Positions 279 to 5,162 of a stretch of 5,267 nucleotides of DNA are shown here, in pieces. How positions within the stretch are numbered: the stretch's first letter is position 1; every line of letters starts with the position of its first letter. The stretch is from an uncultured Eubacterium sp. (GTDB lineage Bacteria > Bacillota_A > Clostridia > Lachnospirales > Lachnospiraceae): positions 1-5,267 of the forward strand of contig CAQBGY010000262.1 of the NCBI GenBank assembly GCA_948759685.1, in the 5' to 3' direction. The position numbers and the translations under genes are program-made. The notes below the pieces were generated by a model. That model saw only the letters and a program-made list of their open reading frames with translations, did no database searches and was not told the origin of the DNA.

Positions 279-1526
279 TTACAGCTCCATGCCGCCCATT
301 CCTCGCTGGTGCTGCTGTTGCTCCTGCTGCTGTCCAATCTCCGGATCGGGCAGCAGCTCCCTCGCCTTTTCAAGCAGAGGACGCAGACGCTCCGGCAAGT
401 GTTCTTCCAAGAAGTCCAGCATCCGACCGATGCCGTCCGTCAGACGCTCGGTGAAGCTGCGTTCCTCCTGCAGCTCGGATTGCAGATAATAGTTTTCATC
501 GCGCAGCCTCCGGTTTTCCTGTTCAAGCCTCTGCTGCCGCTGCGCTTCTTCCAGCCGCTTCTTCATGGACGGCACCTGTGACCGCAGACGGGTGTTTTCC
601 TCCGTCAGCTCCTGTACCTTGTGCCGATCCGTCACGCTGCGCAGTGCCATTTTCTTTAGCTGCTCGACCTGATCCACCGTCACGCCCTTTACTGCCCCTG
701 TGAGCGTCTTTTCCGGCTGAATATCATGCAGGGGTGCATTTACCCTGTCAGCCTCCTTTAAGAGCCGCACAGTGCCTTTCAGAGCGTCCCGCTGCCGTTC
801 CAGCTCAGCAACCTCCCGCTCTACTGCCGCTGTCTGCTGCTGCACCGCTTCCAGCCTCGCAGCCGCTTCCTTGAACTGCGGCAAGTCCATGTGCGGTCTG
901 TTCGTGCCGAGAGAGATAATTTCAAAATCGTGCCGCTGGGCGATCTCCGTCAGAGCTTCTTTCTCCCGTTCCATCCACGCCGCCCATTCGGTCTGCTTTC
1001 TGCCGACACCGACAAACCCCTGCTGCTTCAATGCCTGTTTCATAGATACCCTTGTAGAAAGTCCTCTTGACTGCTCCGTTGCCACAGGGATAAAATCGAC
1101 ATGGAGATGGGGCGTTGCCTCGTCCATGTGCAGCACCATATTGAACACCCGCAGATGGGGGTTGCGTTCTGCAAAAGACTCCGCAAAATCTTTCAGAGCT
1201 GCCGCCGCCCGTTCTCCGTCCGGCGTACCGCACCCACAGTCGCTCATGTTGCCGATCTGGAAGATCGCTTCATGGAACAGCTTTTCCTGTTTACTCTGCC
1301 GGATATGCTCATAGTAGTCCGGTATCTTATCTCTCGTTTTGGTTTTCTTTGCGTTGTAGGCTGCGAGAGCTTCATCAAAGACCATATGATAGACCTGCTT
1401 CAGATCCTCGTTGCAGAAAACAATGTTCTGCTCCGTCCGGCTCCGGTCTACATTCGCCGCTGAGAAGCTGCGGTTGTTGTGCCGGATGCTCCCTGCACCT
1501 GTCATACCCGAAATCGTAACTCCCAT
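279..1526 (-). CDS. mob: MobV-family relaxase (plasmid mobilization/recombination protein)
   Basis: This 415-residue protein should nick the plasmid at oriT, stay attached to the 5' end and pilot the strand into a recipient through another element's conjugation machinery. The N-terminus has the HNNR motif (H16 to R19), matching the catalytic-histidine region of pMV158 MobM, followed by the R/N-rich stretch near residues 28-34. The metal-binding motif HMDEATPHLH is at 133-142, so all key histidines are present. The relaxase domain ends near residue 210. After it come long, charged helical segments (about 215-262 and 300-360) likely to form coiled coils, and a Gln-rich tail (399-407). The start is supported by AAAGGGGGCG a few bases upstream of the ATG, and by an N-terminus (ISGMTGAGSIRHNNR) usual for clostridial members. 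Length fits the family. It is the last gene on its strand, with its own promoter at 1563-1591. It looks intact. Confidence 0.95.
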   Translation of the reverse strand: MGVTISGMTGAGSIRHNNRSFSAANVDRSRTEQNIVFCNEDLKQVYHMVFDEALAAYNAKKTKTRDKIPDYYEHIRQSKQEKLFHEAIFQIGNMSDCGCGTPDGERAAAALKDFAESFAERNPHLRVFNMVLHMDEATPHLHVDFIPVATEQSRGLSTRVSMKQALKQQGFVGVGRKQTEWAAWMEREKEALTEIAQRHDFEIISLGTNRPHMDLPQFKEAAARLEAVQQQTAAVEREVAELERQRDALKGTVRLLKEADRVNAPLHDIQPEKTLTGAVKGVTVDQVEQLKKMALRSVTDRHKVQELTEENTRLRSQVPSMKKRLEEAQRQQRLEQENRRLRDENYYLQSELQEERSFTERLTDGIGRMLDFLEEHLPERLRPLLEKARELLPDPEIGQQQEQQQHQRGMGGMEL

Positions 1527-1816: not shown

Positions 1817-2362
1817 CTAAAATAGTAAAGCCGTACCGCTTACTATTTTTTCTTTTACTGCTGAAACAGTATCTTTGATTGAATGCGTAGTTGTATCTAT
1901 AACATTTAATTCATAGATTCCCAAATTGGAAAATTGCTCCCACATGGTTTCTACCAATTCGATATTTGTCTTTCGGTCTAACTTTGAGCGTTCAACAGCT
2001 CGCTTCAAGGTTTCTTCCTTACTTGCCCTTAAAATAATATAATGCACCTCATAATGTTCCCGAACAAGACTTTGCCACGGCTTTAAAAACCACGGTCCGA
2101 TAATACCGTCAACAATTACATCATATCCACCACGAGCATATCGCTTCGCAGCTTCTAAAAACGCTTCAATGACAATCAAATTTTGCTCATTTGATTCTGG
2201 TAAATGCGGTGGTATTGCCCCTTTACTCAAATAATGATAAAAGTCATCTGTGTGCATATGCACAGACTTTTCCAAATCTGATTCTTTTGCAACAGCAGAT
2301 GCCGTTGTAGTTTTTCCTGTCCCCGGCGCACCTGTGATTACAATAATTCTACCTTGATTCAT
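1817..2362 (-). CDS. P-loop NTPase, small-molecule kinase-like (AAA_33/Zeta/CPT-like), probable cargo
   Basis: This 181-residue cytoplasmic protein is a compact nucleotide-binding fold. The Walker A motif GAPGTGKTT is at 11-19. HTDDF (37-41) has the acidic pair that usually holds substrate and metal in kinases of this group. YDVIVDGIIGPW (80-91) forms the Walker B-like strand, and the Arg/Lys-rich segment 121-131 fits a lid. Related families phosphorylate small molecules, for example chloramphenicol phosphotransferase, or nucleotides; the substrate here cannot be told. The ATG is preceded by GGAGG ten bases upstream. It starts 39 bp after the par stop and is probably cotranscribed with it. 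It is visibly richer in A and T than the mob, par and rep genes, which suggests separate acquisition as cargo. A resistance role is possible but unproven; a toxin role (Zeta-like) is less likely because no partner antitoxin adjoins it. Confidence 0.75.
   Translation of the reverse strand: MNQGRIIVITGAPGTGKTTTASAVAKESDLEKSVHMHTDDFYHYLSKGAIPPHLPESNEQNLIVIEAFLEAAKRYARGGYDVIVDGIIGPWFLKPWQSLVREHYEVHYIILRASKEETLKRAVERSKLDRKTNIELVETMWEQFSNLGIYELNVIDTTTHSIKDTVSAVKEKIVSGTALLF
1819..1849. terminator. Terminator-like hairpin overlapping the kinase 3' end
   Basis: Arms AAAATAGTAA (1819-1828) and TTACTATTTT (1840-1849) pair perfectly over 10 bp and can extend by GC/GC with one bulged A. On the plus strand it is followed by TTCTTTT; on the minus strand the T-run is only four bases and forms part of the arm. 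The arms are AT-rich, so it would be a weak terminator. It overlaps the last codons of the kinase gene. Confidence 0.4.
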
Positions 2363-2401: not shown

Positions 2402-2884
2402 TTAGTCCCCAAAGAACCTACTAAACCAGCTACGCTTTTGAACCGGTTCTGTCTCACGCTCCGGCTGATCGGCTCCGGACTTGCCGGAAAGAAGCTGCTG
2501 ATGCATTGTCCCAGCATGGAGAGCCTGGGCCGCTGCCGCAGTCTGCTGTGCCGTCACCAACGCCGAGCTGACCTCCGCCAACCTTGCGTTCAGTTCCTCG
2601 ATCTGCTTGTCCTTTACAGCAAGTTGCTCGCTTTTCCGGTCTAATTCTCCCTGCAGCATAGCGATCAAAGTGGTTTCGCAAGTTTCGCAACTTGCTTTCG
2701 CCTGTTGCGAAACTTGCTTTCGTTCAACACCTAAATAATGCTGATATATGGCGGTTTTTTGACTTTCGCTGATTGCGAAACTTCCTTTCGCATCTTTCGC
2801 AACATGGTTTCGCCTACACCATGCACGAACTGCCTGTTCCGACACGCCACATTCTATTGCAATTTCCGTTATTACACCCGCCAA
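2402..2884 (-). CDS. par: HTH plus coiled-coil protein, putative pSK1-type plasmid partition protein
   Basis: The 160-residue product has three parts. Residues 4-26 form a helix-turn-helix (ITEIAIECGVSEQAVRAW core). Residues about 74-120 form a heptad-like charged coiled coil. The C-terminus ends in the aromatic motif SWFSRFF (152-158). This order resembles the single-protein partition systems of Gram-positive plasmids (pSK1 Par and DUF536-like relatives), which bind DNA near their own gene and stabilise plasmids without an ATPase. The start is TTG at 2884-2882, the first possible codon after an in-frame stop, with a weak GGTGATG-type ribosome site. The HTH begins immediately after it, as in relatives. 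It lies 33 bp downstream of the toxin gene and 39 bp upstream of the kinase, likely in one operon. The coding sequence holds a remarkable hexamer array (2674-2813). Family call is by architecture, not close sequence recognition; it could instead be a transcription regulator or replication accessory protein. Confidence 0.7.
   Translation of the reverse strand: MAGVITEIAIECGVSEQAVRAWCRRNHVAKDAKGSFAISESQKTAIYQHYLGVERKQVSQQAKASCETCETTLIAMLQGELDRKSEQLAVKDKQIEELNARLAEVSSALVTAQQTAAAAQALHAGTMHQQLLSGKSGADQPERETEPVQKRSWFSRFFGD
2674..2813. repeat. Phased TTTCGC/GCGAAA array inside par (candidate centromere or iterons)
   Basis: Nine exact hexamers start at 2674, 2683, 2696, 2707, 2764, 2775, 2786, 2795 and 2808, plus a TTTCGT variant at 2718. 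Those at 2707 and 2775 are inverted relative to the rest. They fall into two blocks of five (2674-2723 and 2764-2813), each with a mean spacing of exactly 11 bp, so all copies face about the same side of the helix. Only one other copy was found in the window (3620-3625). The segment encodes the linker between HTH and coiled coil, and the copies are read in all three frames. The likely reader is Par itself, giving segregation and autoregulation, or Rep if these are iterons. Function is inferred. Confidence 0.75.
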
Positions 2885-2917
2885 ATATCATCACCACTCT
2901 TTCATCCGGAGTTAATC

Positions 2918-3196
2918 TCAAAACAAATCGCTATGAGATCCCGTCCTTATCAATTTCAAAATCAAAGTCTGCCGAACAACTTTATAGACCAACAGCCAGT
3001 CCGGCTCGATGTGACATTCTCTCATGTCCTTATAATTTCTGGAATTAGTGAGAGCATGATCTCGATACGCCTCCGGCAACGGCTGCTCGTTACACAACAG
3101 CGTGATCACTTCCTCCAACTTCTTCGGATCGCAGCCTCTCTTGATCGCAAGCTTGTAATCTCGTTTGAACTGCCCCGAAAACTCCGGCTTAAGCAT
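2918..3196 (-). CDS. yafQ: YafQ-family type II toxin (mRNA interferase)
   Basis: The 92-residue protein belongs to the RelE/YafQ fold of ribosome-dependent ribonucleases that cut translated mRNA in the cytoplasm. Every residue of the known YafQ active site has a counterpart: H47 in the DHAL motif, H62, D66 and W67 in ECHIEPDW, R84, and H88 and F92 in the terminal GSHSDLF. Length is normal for the family, and no truncation is seen, so it should be active. The ATG (3194-3196) overlaps the end of the antitoxin gene by 8 nt (ATGCTTAA), indicating translational coupling that keeps antitoxin made first. Here it would stabilise the replicon by killing or arresting cells that lose it. Read-through would carry transcription into par. 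Confidence 0.94.
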   Translation of the reverse strand: MLKPEFSGQFKRDYKLAIKRGCDPKKLEEVITLLCNEQPLPEAYRDHALTNSRNYKDMRECHIEPDWLLVYKVVRQTLILKLIRTGSHSDLF

Positions 3197-3455
3197 TCAG
3201 CGCCTCCATCAGATCTGCAACGCTATCAAACGGACCATACATATCCTCTCCCTTTTCTGCCGCCTCCATCGCCGCATAGGTAACAGCATTCGGCTCGTCA
3301 ACCTTGACTTCAAAGGGAAGTCCATGACACCTAAGTGCCTGTCGATAAAAAATACCCGTTGCCGTACTCAAATCCATTCCGAGGGACTTAAAGAGAGCTG
3401 CCGCCTGTGCTTTCAGCTCCGGCTCCATTCTTATCGTCATATTTCCTTTAGCCAT
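3189..3455 (-). CDS. dinJ: RelB/DinJ-family antitoxin
   Basis: This 88-residue protein should bind and neutralise the adjacent YafQ toxin and repress their shared promoter. Residues 5-45 (MTIRMEPELKAQ through the ALRCHGLPFEV stretch) are the ribbon-helix-helix DNA-binding and dimer part typical of DinJ; the C-terminal half, ending GPFDSVADLMEALNA, is the flexible toxin-wrapping part. The ATG at 3453-3455 is chosen over the upstream in-frame ATG at 3530. It has a strong GGAAAGGAG ribosome site eight bases away and gives the usual family N-terminus (MAKGNMTIRM), while the longer form would begin inside the operator and upstream of the -10 box. It is the first gene of the presumed operon. Confidence 0.93.
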   Translation of the reverse strand: MAKGNMTIRMEPELKAQAAALFKSLGMDLSTATGIFYRQALRCHGLPFEVKVDEPNAVTYAAMEAAEKGEDMYGPFDSVADLMEALNA

Positions 3456-3495
3456 AATAGCACTCCTTTCCTCGTCATTTTTAGCTTGCACTAAT

Positions 3496-3539
3496 ATTAT
3501 ATTCAATATTCGTGACATTTGCAAGTGCATTGCAAATGT
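3496..3539 (-). promoter_or_regulatory. Toxin-antitoxin promoter with overlapping palindromic operator
   Basis: A perfect TATAAT -10 box (3496-3501 on the minus strand) sits 17 bp from TTGCAA (3519-3524), a four-of-six -35 box. That -35 box lies in one arm of a perfect inverted repeat, ACATTTGCAA (3515-3524) and TTGCAAATGT (3530-3539), with a 5-bp spacer. A ribbon-helix-helix antitoxin, alone or with toxin, bound there would block RNA polymerase, the normal autoregulation of this family. The predicted start near 3489 leaves a leader of about 34 nt before the antitoxin ATG. Confidence 0.82.
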
Positions 3540-3710: not shown

Positions 3711-5162
3711 TTACAGCCCTTTCTTAAATTCCTCCACCAACAGATCGCTCAAAGCCTGTGATGGGCGTATTTTGACCGTTATATGCCCCTCCGGTACGGT
3801 GTCCCACCATTTGCGGATCGTTTTCGGATCAAGTCCGGTGTCCCTATGACAATCGGCCTTGCGTCCCTCTGGATGCTCCTGCCGCCACGCATAGACTTGC
3901 GCTTTCTTTTCTTCTGCCCCTTTTCTTCTCCATGTGCCGCCAGGATAATCCACTTCCTGCACCGCCCTTGCTCTTTTCAAATGCTCTTTCTGTGATCTAC
4001 CATTCCTCTTGTTGCGCTCGATGCGAACATCGGTCAGAGCTTCAATATCGGAAATCGTGAAATTGTAATACTCCTTGTCGTAGGCTTCCAGCGCACTCCG
4101 TATATCTTCCTCGGTCAATGCGTTCTCATGCTTCACCATCTGCAGATCATCAAAAGCCTCTTTCATATCCTGCCGGAGCTGCTGCTTCGACACACCGCAT
4201 TTGTAAGCATAGATAGCAAGGCACATCAAAAAGAAATACCGATGCCCGCCCTTTATCTCTCCGATCTGCCGCAGCCACCAATGGTAGAGCGCATACGGAT
4301 CATCACCATGCACCTTTCCGGCAATATCCCACTTCTTGCGTCCTTTCTCGCCTCTCACAACAACACGCTCATACCACTCCGGATATGCCTCCCTCGCCTC
4401 AGCTCGTGTCATTTTGGATGGGCTGAAAGGCTTATTGACATCCACCCTGTTTTCTGGCTTTGCGTAGGCGTTCAGATAATCCAGCGTTACCCGTTCTCCG
4501 GTACGGAAAGCGACCAGCTCCGTCCCATGCTTGTCATTGATGCTGCCCACCATGCGGAAGCTCTGATTGATGGATTGATACTGGATCGCCTTGACCTGCG
4601 AAGTGCTGCCATACTCCCATAGCCGGAAAGTGAGGTCATATTTCAGACTTTTAAGCTGAATTTTTATATTCGGGTATAGGTCAATCGGCTGCTGGAAAAC
4701 ATAGTAGATATGCAGCCCTGTCCCCGACAGAACAAGGAAAGTCGGCATCGGCAACCGGCGCACTCGCTCCGGATCGCCGCCAAAGCGCAGAAAGAGGTTG
4801 CGCAGCTCGGCAAGACCTACGCCATCCAGATCGAAGATCAGAGCATACATCCGCTGGGCGTTCTCCAGCCTGTTCTCCTTTCTGCGATATGCAAGACCGC
4901 TGCACAAAGTAAGGCTGTTCCCCTCGACAAACTCCATGTAATCCTGTTCCCATGTGTCGTTATACATCTTCCTGCGCCGGAGCTTCTTATCCTCGCTCTG
5001 TTCGTCCCGATACAGATACACAGCGTTCGGATGGGAAAAATCCGTGTGCCGTTCTCCGGAGTTCTCATTGTCCGGAAACAGCTCTTTATAAAACTCATAG
5101 CCTCCGACCTCCGGATATTGTGCGCTCAAATACTCGTAGCAGCCTCGATAATTCTCGGTCAT
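3711..5162 (-). CDS. rep: Primase-polymerase-like plasmid replication protein with C-terminal HTH
   Basis: This 483-residue protein looks like an archaeo-eukaryotic-primase type initiator that would prime and perhaps extend replication of this element. The IFDLD motif (109-113) fits catalytic motif I (D111, D113), SGTGLHIYYVF (146-156) fits motif II with H151, and SFRMVGSINDK (201-211) resembles the downstream Arg/Gly motif of PrimPol proteins. The usual acidic residue of motif III is not obvious just before it. Residues about 281-345 (GGHRYFFLMCLAIYAYKCGVS) fit a helical primase C-terminal domain. The end, with AQVYAWRQEHPEG and TGLDPKTIRKWW (421-454), is a helix-turn-helix likely to bind the origin. 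The ATG is preceded by GAGGTGG. No promoter could be recognised in the leader 5163-5267. It stands alone on its transcript. A rolling-circle Rep is excluded by the lack of HUH motifs. Role as the replication initiator is inferred from family and context. Confidence 0.75.
   Translation of the reverse strand: MTENYRGCYEYLSAQYPEVGGYEFYKELFPDNENSGERHTDFSHPNAVYLYRDEQSEDKKLRRRKMYNDTWEQDYMEFVEGNSLTLCSGLAYRRKENRLENAQRMYALIFDLDGVGLAELRNLFLRFGGDPERVRRLPMPTFLVLSGTGLHIYYVFQQPIDLYPNIKIQLKSLKYDLTFRLWEYGSTSQVKAIQYQSINQSFRMVGSINDKHGTELVAFRTGERVTLDYLNAYAKPENRVDVNKPFSPSKMTRAEAREAYPEWYERVVVRGEKGRKKWDIAGKVHGDDPYALYHWWLRQIGEIKGGHRYFFLMCLAIYAYKCGVSKQQLRQDMKEAFDDLQMVKHENALTEEDIRSALEAYDKEYYNFTISDIEALTDVRIERNKRNGRSQKEHLKRARAVQEVDYPGGTWRRKGAEEKKAQVYAWRQEHPEGRKADCHRDTGLDPKTIRKWWDTVPEGHITVKIRPSQALSDLLVEEFKKGL

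Follow-up and report, generated by a model that had tools for sequence, protein, structure and literature searches.

A clustered hexamer array within the par coding sequence of a small mobilizable plasmid, a probable partition site of a single-protein system

How DNA is moved by single-protein partition systems, of which pSK1 Par and RocS are examples, is still an open question (PMC11500499). There, RocS of Streptococcus pneumoniae is described as a helix-turn-helix (HTH, residues 1-55) followed by a coiled coil (68-102), a DUF536 region (104-146) and an amphipathic helix (153-163) (PMC11500499). In the Streptomyces plasmid SCP2, the parS centromere was located inside the parT coding sequence by chromatin immunoprecipitation sequencing (ChIP-seq) (PMC12260392). 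In Clostridium perfringens, plasmids with similar Rep proteins carry ParMRC families of different partition specificity, which apparently decides compatibility (PMC9426499). In this study, we analysed a 5,267-bp stretch of DNA (contig CAQBGY010000262.1, hereafter the window) and found that its par-like gene, here called par, contains an array of short hexamer sites within its coding sequence. The array is likely to serve in cis as the site of a plasmid partition system of the single-protein pSK1 Par/RocS type, which works without a nucleoside triphosphatase (NTPase) and here has its site within the very gene that encodes the partition protein. Judged from sequence, the array is most likely a Par-bound centromere and operator in one.

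The hexamer array in par and its relatives

The hexamer TTTCGC, counted on either strand, occurs ten times in the window, nine times within positions 2674-2813 and once outside (3620, plus strand). The first-pass annotation had reported nine exact copies in 140 bp against one other, in two five-member blocks of which one member is TTTCGT, and an exact search gave the same counts with all copies at the proposed offsets (Table 1). The window-wide total is only mildly unusual, being matched by 3 of 200 dinucleotide shuffles, and the clustering is the striking part: other hexamers, where they lead in a 160-bp stretch (step 20 bp), reach at most four copies. Synonymous-codon shuffles of par gave a mean of 1.84 hexamers and a maximum of 8, and shuffles with plasmid codon usage a mean of 1.38 and a maximum of 7; nine were reached in 0 of 100,000 in either case. 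The copies occupy all three codon phases and both strands, and therefore no amino-acid repeat accounts for the array, a clear example of multiple sites embedded in coding DNA.

Neighbouring sites are 9, 13, 11 and 11 bp apart in block 1 and 11, 11, 9 and 13 bp apart in block 2, that is, 22 + 22 bp in each block. Within-block phasing at 11.0 bp gave R 0.90 and 0.90, and equal regularity arose in 1 of 20,000 random non-overlapping placements. The earlier proposal that all copies lie on nearly the same helix face holds inside each block but not between the blocks, which are out of register at 10.5 bp per turn (overall R 0.17) and become aligned at a common period of about 11.25 bp (R 0.89). Two phased clusters is the safe description of the array, and all sites on one face is not.

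The DNA-level comparison covered 24 genome loci together with plasmid loci (L numbers), a small part of the homologues, the protein searches having listed 1,586 and 5,172 proteins without DNA. The full nine-site layout is present in 16 of 16 near copies (L001-L016, 96-100% protein identity, L016 being cut at 125 amino acids). At 74% protein identity, L017 has ten sites, with a complete hexamer at the position of the window's TTTCGT, and eight hexamers are found in L018 (72%) and six in L029 (49%). One site of L017 is flipped and lies two bases away; here the protein changes from SCET to SFAT and the hexamer is retained. The L019 gene (Faecalibacterium chromosome, 5001-5475) has a broken par frame and keeps eight hexamers. 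A broken par frame with seven hexamers was also seen in L020 (5001-5424), from a Lachnospiraceae metagenome-assembled genome. The L018 homologue (5001-5468) lies in a 51-kb contig next to genes that are arginine-biosynthesis-like from their translations, and the 10.5 kb fetched around it gave no match to any other window gene.

Silent-capable positions were compared in codons with an unchanged amino acid, with the ten sites (including ACGAAA) masked as hexamers and a one-sided Fisher test; L019 and L020 were excluded for their broken reading frames. Unchanged positions numbered 20/20 in hexamers versus 79/111 outside in L017 (P 0.0022), 17/18 versus 55/99 in L018 (P 0.00098), 12/12 versus 24/52 in L029 (P 0.00038) and 22/22 versus 120/141 in L015 (P 0.038). 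With the outside limited to codons 1-78, P was 0.018, 0.017, 0.0098 and 0.0039 for L015, L017, L018 and L029, respectively, and L013 and L014, both too close to the window to be informative, gave P 0.87 each. Thus hexamers at synonymous sites are conserved among relatives, and none of the homologues with DNA was seen to lose the hexamers where its amino acids are retained. By this comparison of sequences the array is a selected DNA element, and its conservation in homologues supports the first-pass view of a multi-site target for a DNA-binding protein within par, most likely Par.

The array also appears to be specific to par. A search of 394 genomes from a single bacterial order found the core GCGAAA-N5-TTTCGC-N5-GCGAAA four times, always inside par, and a reversed control pattern not at all. 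Par-family matches (E <= 1e-5) are present in 16 of the 394, and 12 of these are without the three-site core. In 2.9 million viral contigs the core was found in three stretches of unrelated genes. From their translations, these are a primase-like gene and a capsid-like gene that two of the contigs share, and we take the hits as chance. A second pattern had no match in the viral contigs, where a single query found no Par homologue and an alignment query found one partial homologue (L041), which was set aside. A search of a phage collection for Par returned one record, MT839798.1, a 4-kb "Bacteriophage sp." entry with a 99.4% identical Par at 2611-3090 that is perhaps a mislabelled plasmid fragment.

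Sites, recognition helix and a candidate cassette

Among 62 distinct family genes, many of them near copies (52 after collapsing genes with the same first 60 residues and dropping pieces below 60 amino acids), we found that the motif co-varies with the Par recognition helix as read from sequence, other helices going with other motifs in the same part of the gene. All five group A genes (helix SEQAVRxWxR(R/K)N) hold 6-10 copies of GCGAAA, against at most one copy in groups B-D. CGCAAA occurs 7, 7, 7 and 3 times in the four genes of group B (NLGLxSxL) and at most once in A, C and D, and CATACG occurs 4-5 times in 6 of 6 genes of group C (KRxxGxLxTV) and not at all in A, B and D. In the seven genes of group D (PLS), GTCAAC is found 11, 10, 5, 5, 3, 0 and 0 times, several of these sites being VDG codons, as compared to at most once in A-C. 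Of 30 ungrouped genes, those with more than three copies of one of seven listed motifs are L020 (7 GCGAAA; a broken group A gene), L087 (6 GTCAAC), L025 (6 TATCAA), L092 (5 CGGAAA) and L072 (4 TATCAA), and five more reach three. The first site lies at gene position 69-98 in groups A-C, L059, L085 and L087, and later in L052 and L053.

The 6-mer enrichment was matched by 0-11 of 1000 synonymous shuffles in groups A and B and in L059, L085 and L025. Group C is weak for 6-mers (130-194 of 1000 in L022, L021 and L049, 159-237 in L082-L084, 30 in L023 and 12 in L024) and stronger for 8-mers (5-45 of 1000). In total, 20 of the 62 genes stand at 10 of 1000 or fewer, a number that includes several group A genes almost identical to one another. 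With every gene bringing a reader and its own array, such a family would offer natural reader-site pairs for studying DNA recognition by this fold. In addition, L064 (Streptococcus) and L069 (Enterococcus) have a group B-like wing, LQSSLRK, and each holds three copies of CGCAAA within the initial 330 bp of par, which may be a less pronounced form of the group B pair. Repeats of another kind are found in L071, a Lactococcus DUF536-like gene, whose linker is tandemly repeated with a 24-bp period (178-322).

The recognition helix and the array appear to travel together, which the first-pass annotation had not foreseen, nor had it foreseen the switch of motif with the helix. L026 and L114, the latter a longer piece of the record behind L048, share 89% identity over 2,755 bp that run from rep across the toxin gene and up to par +56, where the match ends in the middle of the recognition helix, and L026 and L048 are 94.8% identical in the last 630 bp before this break. 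L017 and L026 have no blastn match in par positions 1-266 and 93.75% identity over the next 160 bp. Mean nucleotide identity between groups is 62%, 40% and 58% for codons 1-18, 19-84 and 85-end (164 pairs), versus 75%, 69% and 61% within groups (46 pairs); the short L059 (110 codons) is counted in these averages but not used as a mosaic example. Between-group mosaics are seen in L017-L022 (52/35/82%), L048-L082 (91/49/83%), L048-L024 (78/49/81%) and L027-L082 (89/49/79%). The apparently exchanged segment comprises the entire array together with the wing and the greater part of the recognition helix, with little besides, and these mosaic breaks fit cassette exchange and suggest that helix and array move as one cassette of about 210 bp. 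On balance, we lean towards the view that in this family of gut Clostridia plasmids partition specificity is one exchangeable par cassette of this size, which codes for the helix and wing and spells the array, so that a swap would give a new incompatibility type to the same replicon, with at least four reader/site types (GCGAAA; CGCAAA; CATACG with GCTCC; GTCAAC).

It is reasonable to propose the following scheme for the Par system. The MerR-like winged HTH of Par would bind the hexamers in two clusters, each with five sites in phase, and the coiled coil would allow the bound molecules to oligomerise and bridge. The amphipathic tail may then tether the complex to the membrane, keeping sister plasmids apart, one for each daughter cell. 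Occupancy of the array would hinder transcription through par and cause autorepression, leaving the upstream antitoxin-toxin genes unaffected. Recombination in the conserved flanks would swap reader and sites together, because both sit in one stretch of about 210 bp, and so create a new partition specificity in the same replicon. If so, cassette exchange would offer a simple route by which small mobilizable plasmids of the gut, resistance carriers among them, could coexist in one cell. The natural reader-site pairs would allow testing whether partition specificity sets plasmid compatibility.

Alternative explanations of the array

Multiple phased short repeats look like iterons, and a Rep is encoded on the same small plasmid; the first-pass annotation had suggested as an alternative that the array may serve Rep. 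However, array type and Rep type are doubly dissociated: the window and L017 have a common array type with Rep proteins only 41% identical, whereas L017, L026 and L114 have 90.5-93.2% identical Rep proteins and GCGAAA, CATACG and CGCAAA arrays, respectively (the L026 type being read from its near-identical copy L022). Furthermore, no match to a window-type Rep turned up in the stretches fetched for L018, L020 and L029, and L029 has a different annotated initiator, all of which makes iterons for Rep very improbable. The RelB/YafQ pair was likewise considered as a necessary binder and rejected, because the array is present without a tblastn match to relB or yafQ in the L018 and L029 stretches and because L026 and L114 have 100% identical YafQ with different arrays. 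A coupling of the array to toxin-antitoxin read-through, as also proposed in the first pass, could nevertheless be envisaged. The sites might also belong to a host nucleoid protein or transcription factor rather than to Par, but the motif varies together with the recognition helix that the plasmid itself encodes and the three-site core is absent outside par in the 394 genomes, and we see next to no chance for such a factor. Equally hard to believe is that the repeats arise from amino acids (AK, SFA, CET) or base composition. Some copies are indeed the dipeptide AK (GCG AAA), but the synonymous shuffles, the spread over codon phases and strands and the near absence of change at silent sites within hexamers all oppose it, and an amino-acid repeat as the source of the array is ruled out by the shuffles together with the silent-site conservation.

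The inverted hexamers could also form hairpins in par mRNA that control its translation or stability. The folding z-score is -5.28 for positions 2660-2830, and scores of -4.98 (window), -4.61 (L017), -3.57 (L018), -4.53 (L019), -2.30 (L029), -5.49 (L027), -3.62 (L022) and -2.80 (L048) were obtained for the array regions compared. In the 14-bp stem, 87.1% of cells are paired, four pairs are changed on both sides and the covariation score was reached by 1 of 500 shuffles, a count resting on seven related sequences, which are few for this purpose. However, in a hexamer-only model randomly oriented sites fold as low or lower in many cases (181 of 400 for the window, 184 of 400 for L017 and 232 of 400 for L018), and L029 folds worse than all 400 random-orientation arrays; L019 folds lower than most random arrays (21 of 400). 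Moreover, predicted folds vary among homologues, L020 is without one stem arm, and a switch of motif with the DNA-recognition helix is unexpected for RNA. A hairpin role is thus disfavoured and appears rather improbable. A somewhat better but still small chance is given to the array being only an operator, at which Par would repress par by a transcription roadblock, with the true partition site elsewhere or with Par being no partition protein. The array does sit in a transcribed gene, and L018 keeps its eight sites beside arginine-biosynthesis-like genes, where no plasmid needs partition. Against this, ten sites across 140 bp exceed the requirements of a simple operator, and the hexamer is absent from the 250 bp upstream of group A par genes. 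In pSK1, with its seven repeats and autoregulated par, the same sites reportedly do both jobs (Chan et al. 2022).

Plasmid context and comparison with known systems

The window is the backbone of a small mobilizable plasmid, a close relative of which is typed MOBV, and the 6,961-bp plasmid pCd13_cfrC of Clostridioides difficile is 99.9% identical to it across 94% of the window length. Its features are listed in Table 1.

Table 1. Features of the window (positions in bp, read on the forward strand)
Feature	Position	Strand	Remarks
Mob_Pre relaxase gene	279-1526	-	
CPT/zeta-like kinase gene	1817-2362	-	
par-like gene	2402..2884	-	160 amino acids; TTG start
C-terminal tail of Par, residues 150-160	2405..2437	-	candidate MinD/RocS-like amphipathic helix
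Candidate specificity cassette	2618..2828	-	par gene about 57-267; from sequence breaks between L026, L048/L114 and L017 and from segment identities
Array block 1	2674..2723		TTTCGC at 2674, 2683, 2696; GCGAAA at 2707; TTTCGT at 2718-2723
Perfect 14-nt inverted repeat	2678..2717		two oppositely oriented extended sites; possible mRNA hairpin
Array block 2	2764..2813		TTTCGC at 2764, 2786, 2795, 2808; GCGAAA at 2775
Predicted recognition-helix codons	2810..2839	-	residues 16-25, EQAVRAWCRR; from structure model and helix groups
YafQ-family toxin gene	2918..3196	-	immediately upstream of par; Pfam
RelB/DinJ-family antitoxin gene	3189..3530	-	Pfam
Rep-like gene	3711..5162	-	483 amino acids; no Pfam match at E 0.1
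Par protein domains (predicted)			winged HTH, residues 3-53; coiled coil, 64-132; disordered stretch; C-terminal KRSWFSRFFGD amphipathic-helix-like tail

Par is encoded by the third gene after relB-yafQ, with a spacer of 33 bp from the end of yafQ, and this may be a reason for the intragenic placement, as an upstream array would fall in the toxin gene. Relatives of the Rep-like protein at 38-41% identity are found on several gut plasmids and contigs. The kinase is fragmented in L001 and without a match in others, for example L005-L007; the segment 1799-2393 has counterparts of 87-94% identity on Campylobacter and Enterococcus plasmids, several of which adjoin aminoglycoside-resistance genes. 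In pCd13_cfrC, this place downstream of par is occupied by cfr(C) and aph(3')-IIIa, and pieces of the kinase are left over. Just upstream of Mob_Pre, at 1626-1676, a perfect 18-nt inverted repeat with a 15-nt loop is a candidate oriT-like or terminator element.

The predicted architecture of Par places it close to the pSK1 type, with a MerR-like winged HTH as N-terminal domain and, by sequence and model, a coiled coil followed by a MinD-like C-terminal amphipathic helix. The structure model has a helix at 64-132 and a short helix at 154-157, and in an alignment of 42 homologues W153 of the tail is nearly invariant and F158 invariant. The six window proteins gave no match to the ParA, ParM or TubZ families among the Pfam matches listed (25 of 38 for the kinase and none for Rep). 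The DUF536 score stays below the Pfam gathering cut-off of 20.7 bits in the window (15.9) and in L017 (16.3), whereas the Lactococcus relative L030 exceeds it (22.5). Because the array lies inside the gene and not upstream, and because the DUF536 cut-off is not reached, we file the system as a variant working like pSK1 Par and not as a member.

That pSK1-type sites lie upstream of par, as the first-pass annotation stated, holds at one staphylococcal locus, L111; across the 159 residues searched, its Par and the PDB chain are identical. Seven direct TTAGG repeats and one inverted one are located at 304-409, just upstream of par (425), and one more is in the gene (1025). In exact-word tests, enrichment is only modest in the upstream region (8-mers 10 of 300 shuffles, 6-mers 50 of 300) and absent from the initial 330 bp of par (266-300 of 300). 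The words enriched upstream of two further staphylococcal par genes, 42-47% identical to pSK1 Par, are TATATA (L112) and TTATAAA (L113), hinting that motif switching also occurs where arrays lie upstream.

pSK1 Par of staphylococcal plasmids (PDB 8csh; PMC11500499) resembles the window Par in its MerR-like winged HTH, coiled coil and MinD-like C-terminal helix, as well as in a short-repeat array and the lack of any NTPase partner found. It differs in that its TTAGG repeats, as seen in L111, lie upstream of par, whereas the window sites are all inside the gene, and sequence similarity is weak. RocS shares layout and size with the window Par (3-53, 64-132 and 150-160) (PMC11500499), but it is chromosomal, whereas the window Par is on a plasmid. 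C. perfringens ParMRC is alike in combining similar Rep proteins with differing partition specificity (PMC9426499). Unlike the window system, it has a ParM partner and ParR binding at a parC site. ParM is an actin-like motor. SCP2 ParT/parS has its centromere within the gene of the centromere-binding protein, as in the window, but it comprises one 18-bp inverted repeat and a ParA ATPase partner, and the available part of PMC12260392 does not mention a motif-switching cassette. An intragenic centromere is thus not new in itself, SCP2 parT being the precedent and, in the parts of the open literature searched, the only such case. What appears new, as far as that literature shows, is an intragenic multi-site array in a single-protein family, the switching of its motif with the recognition helix, and the combination of reader and sites in one cassette.
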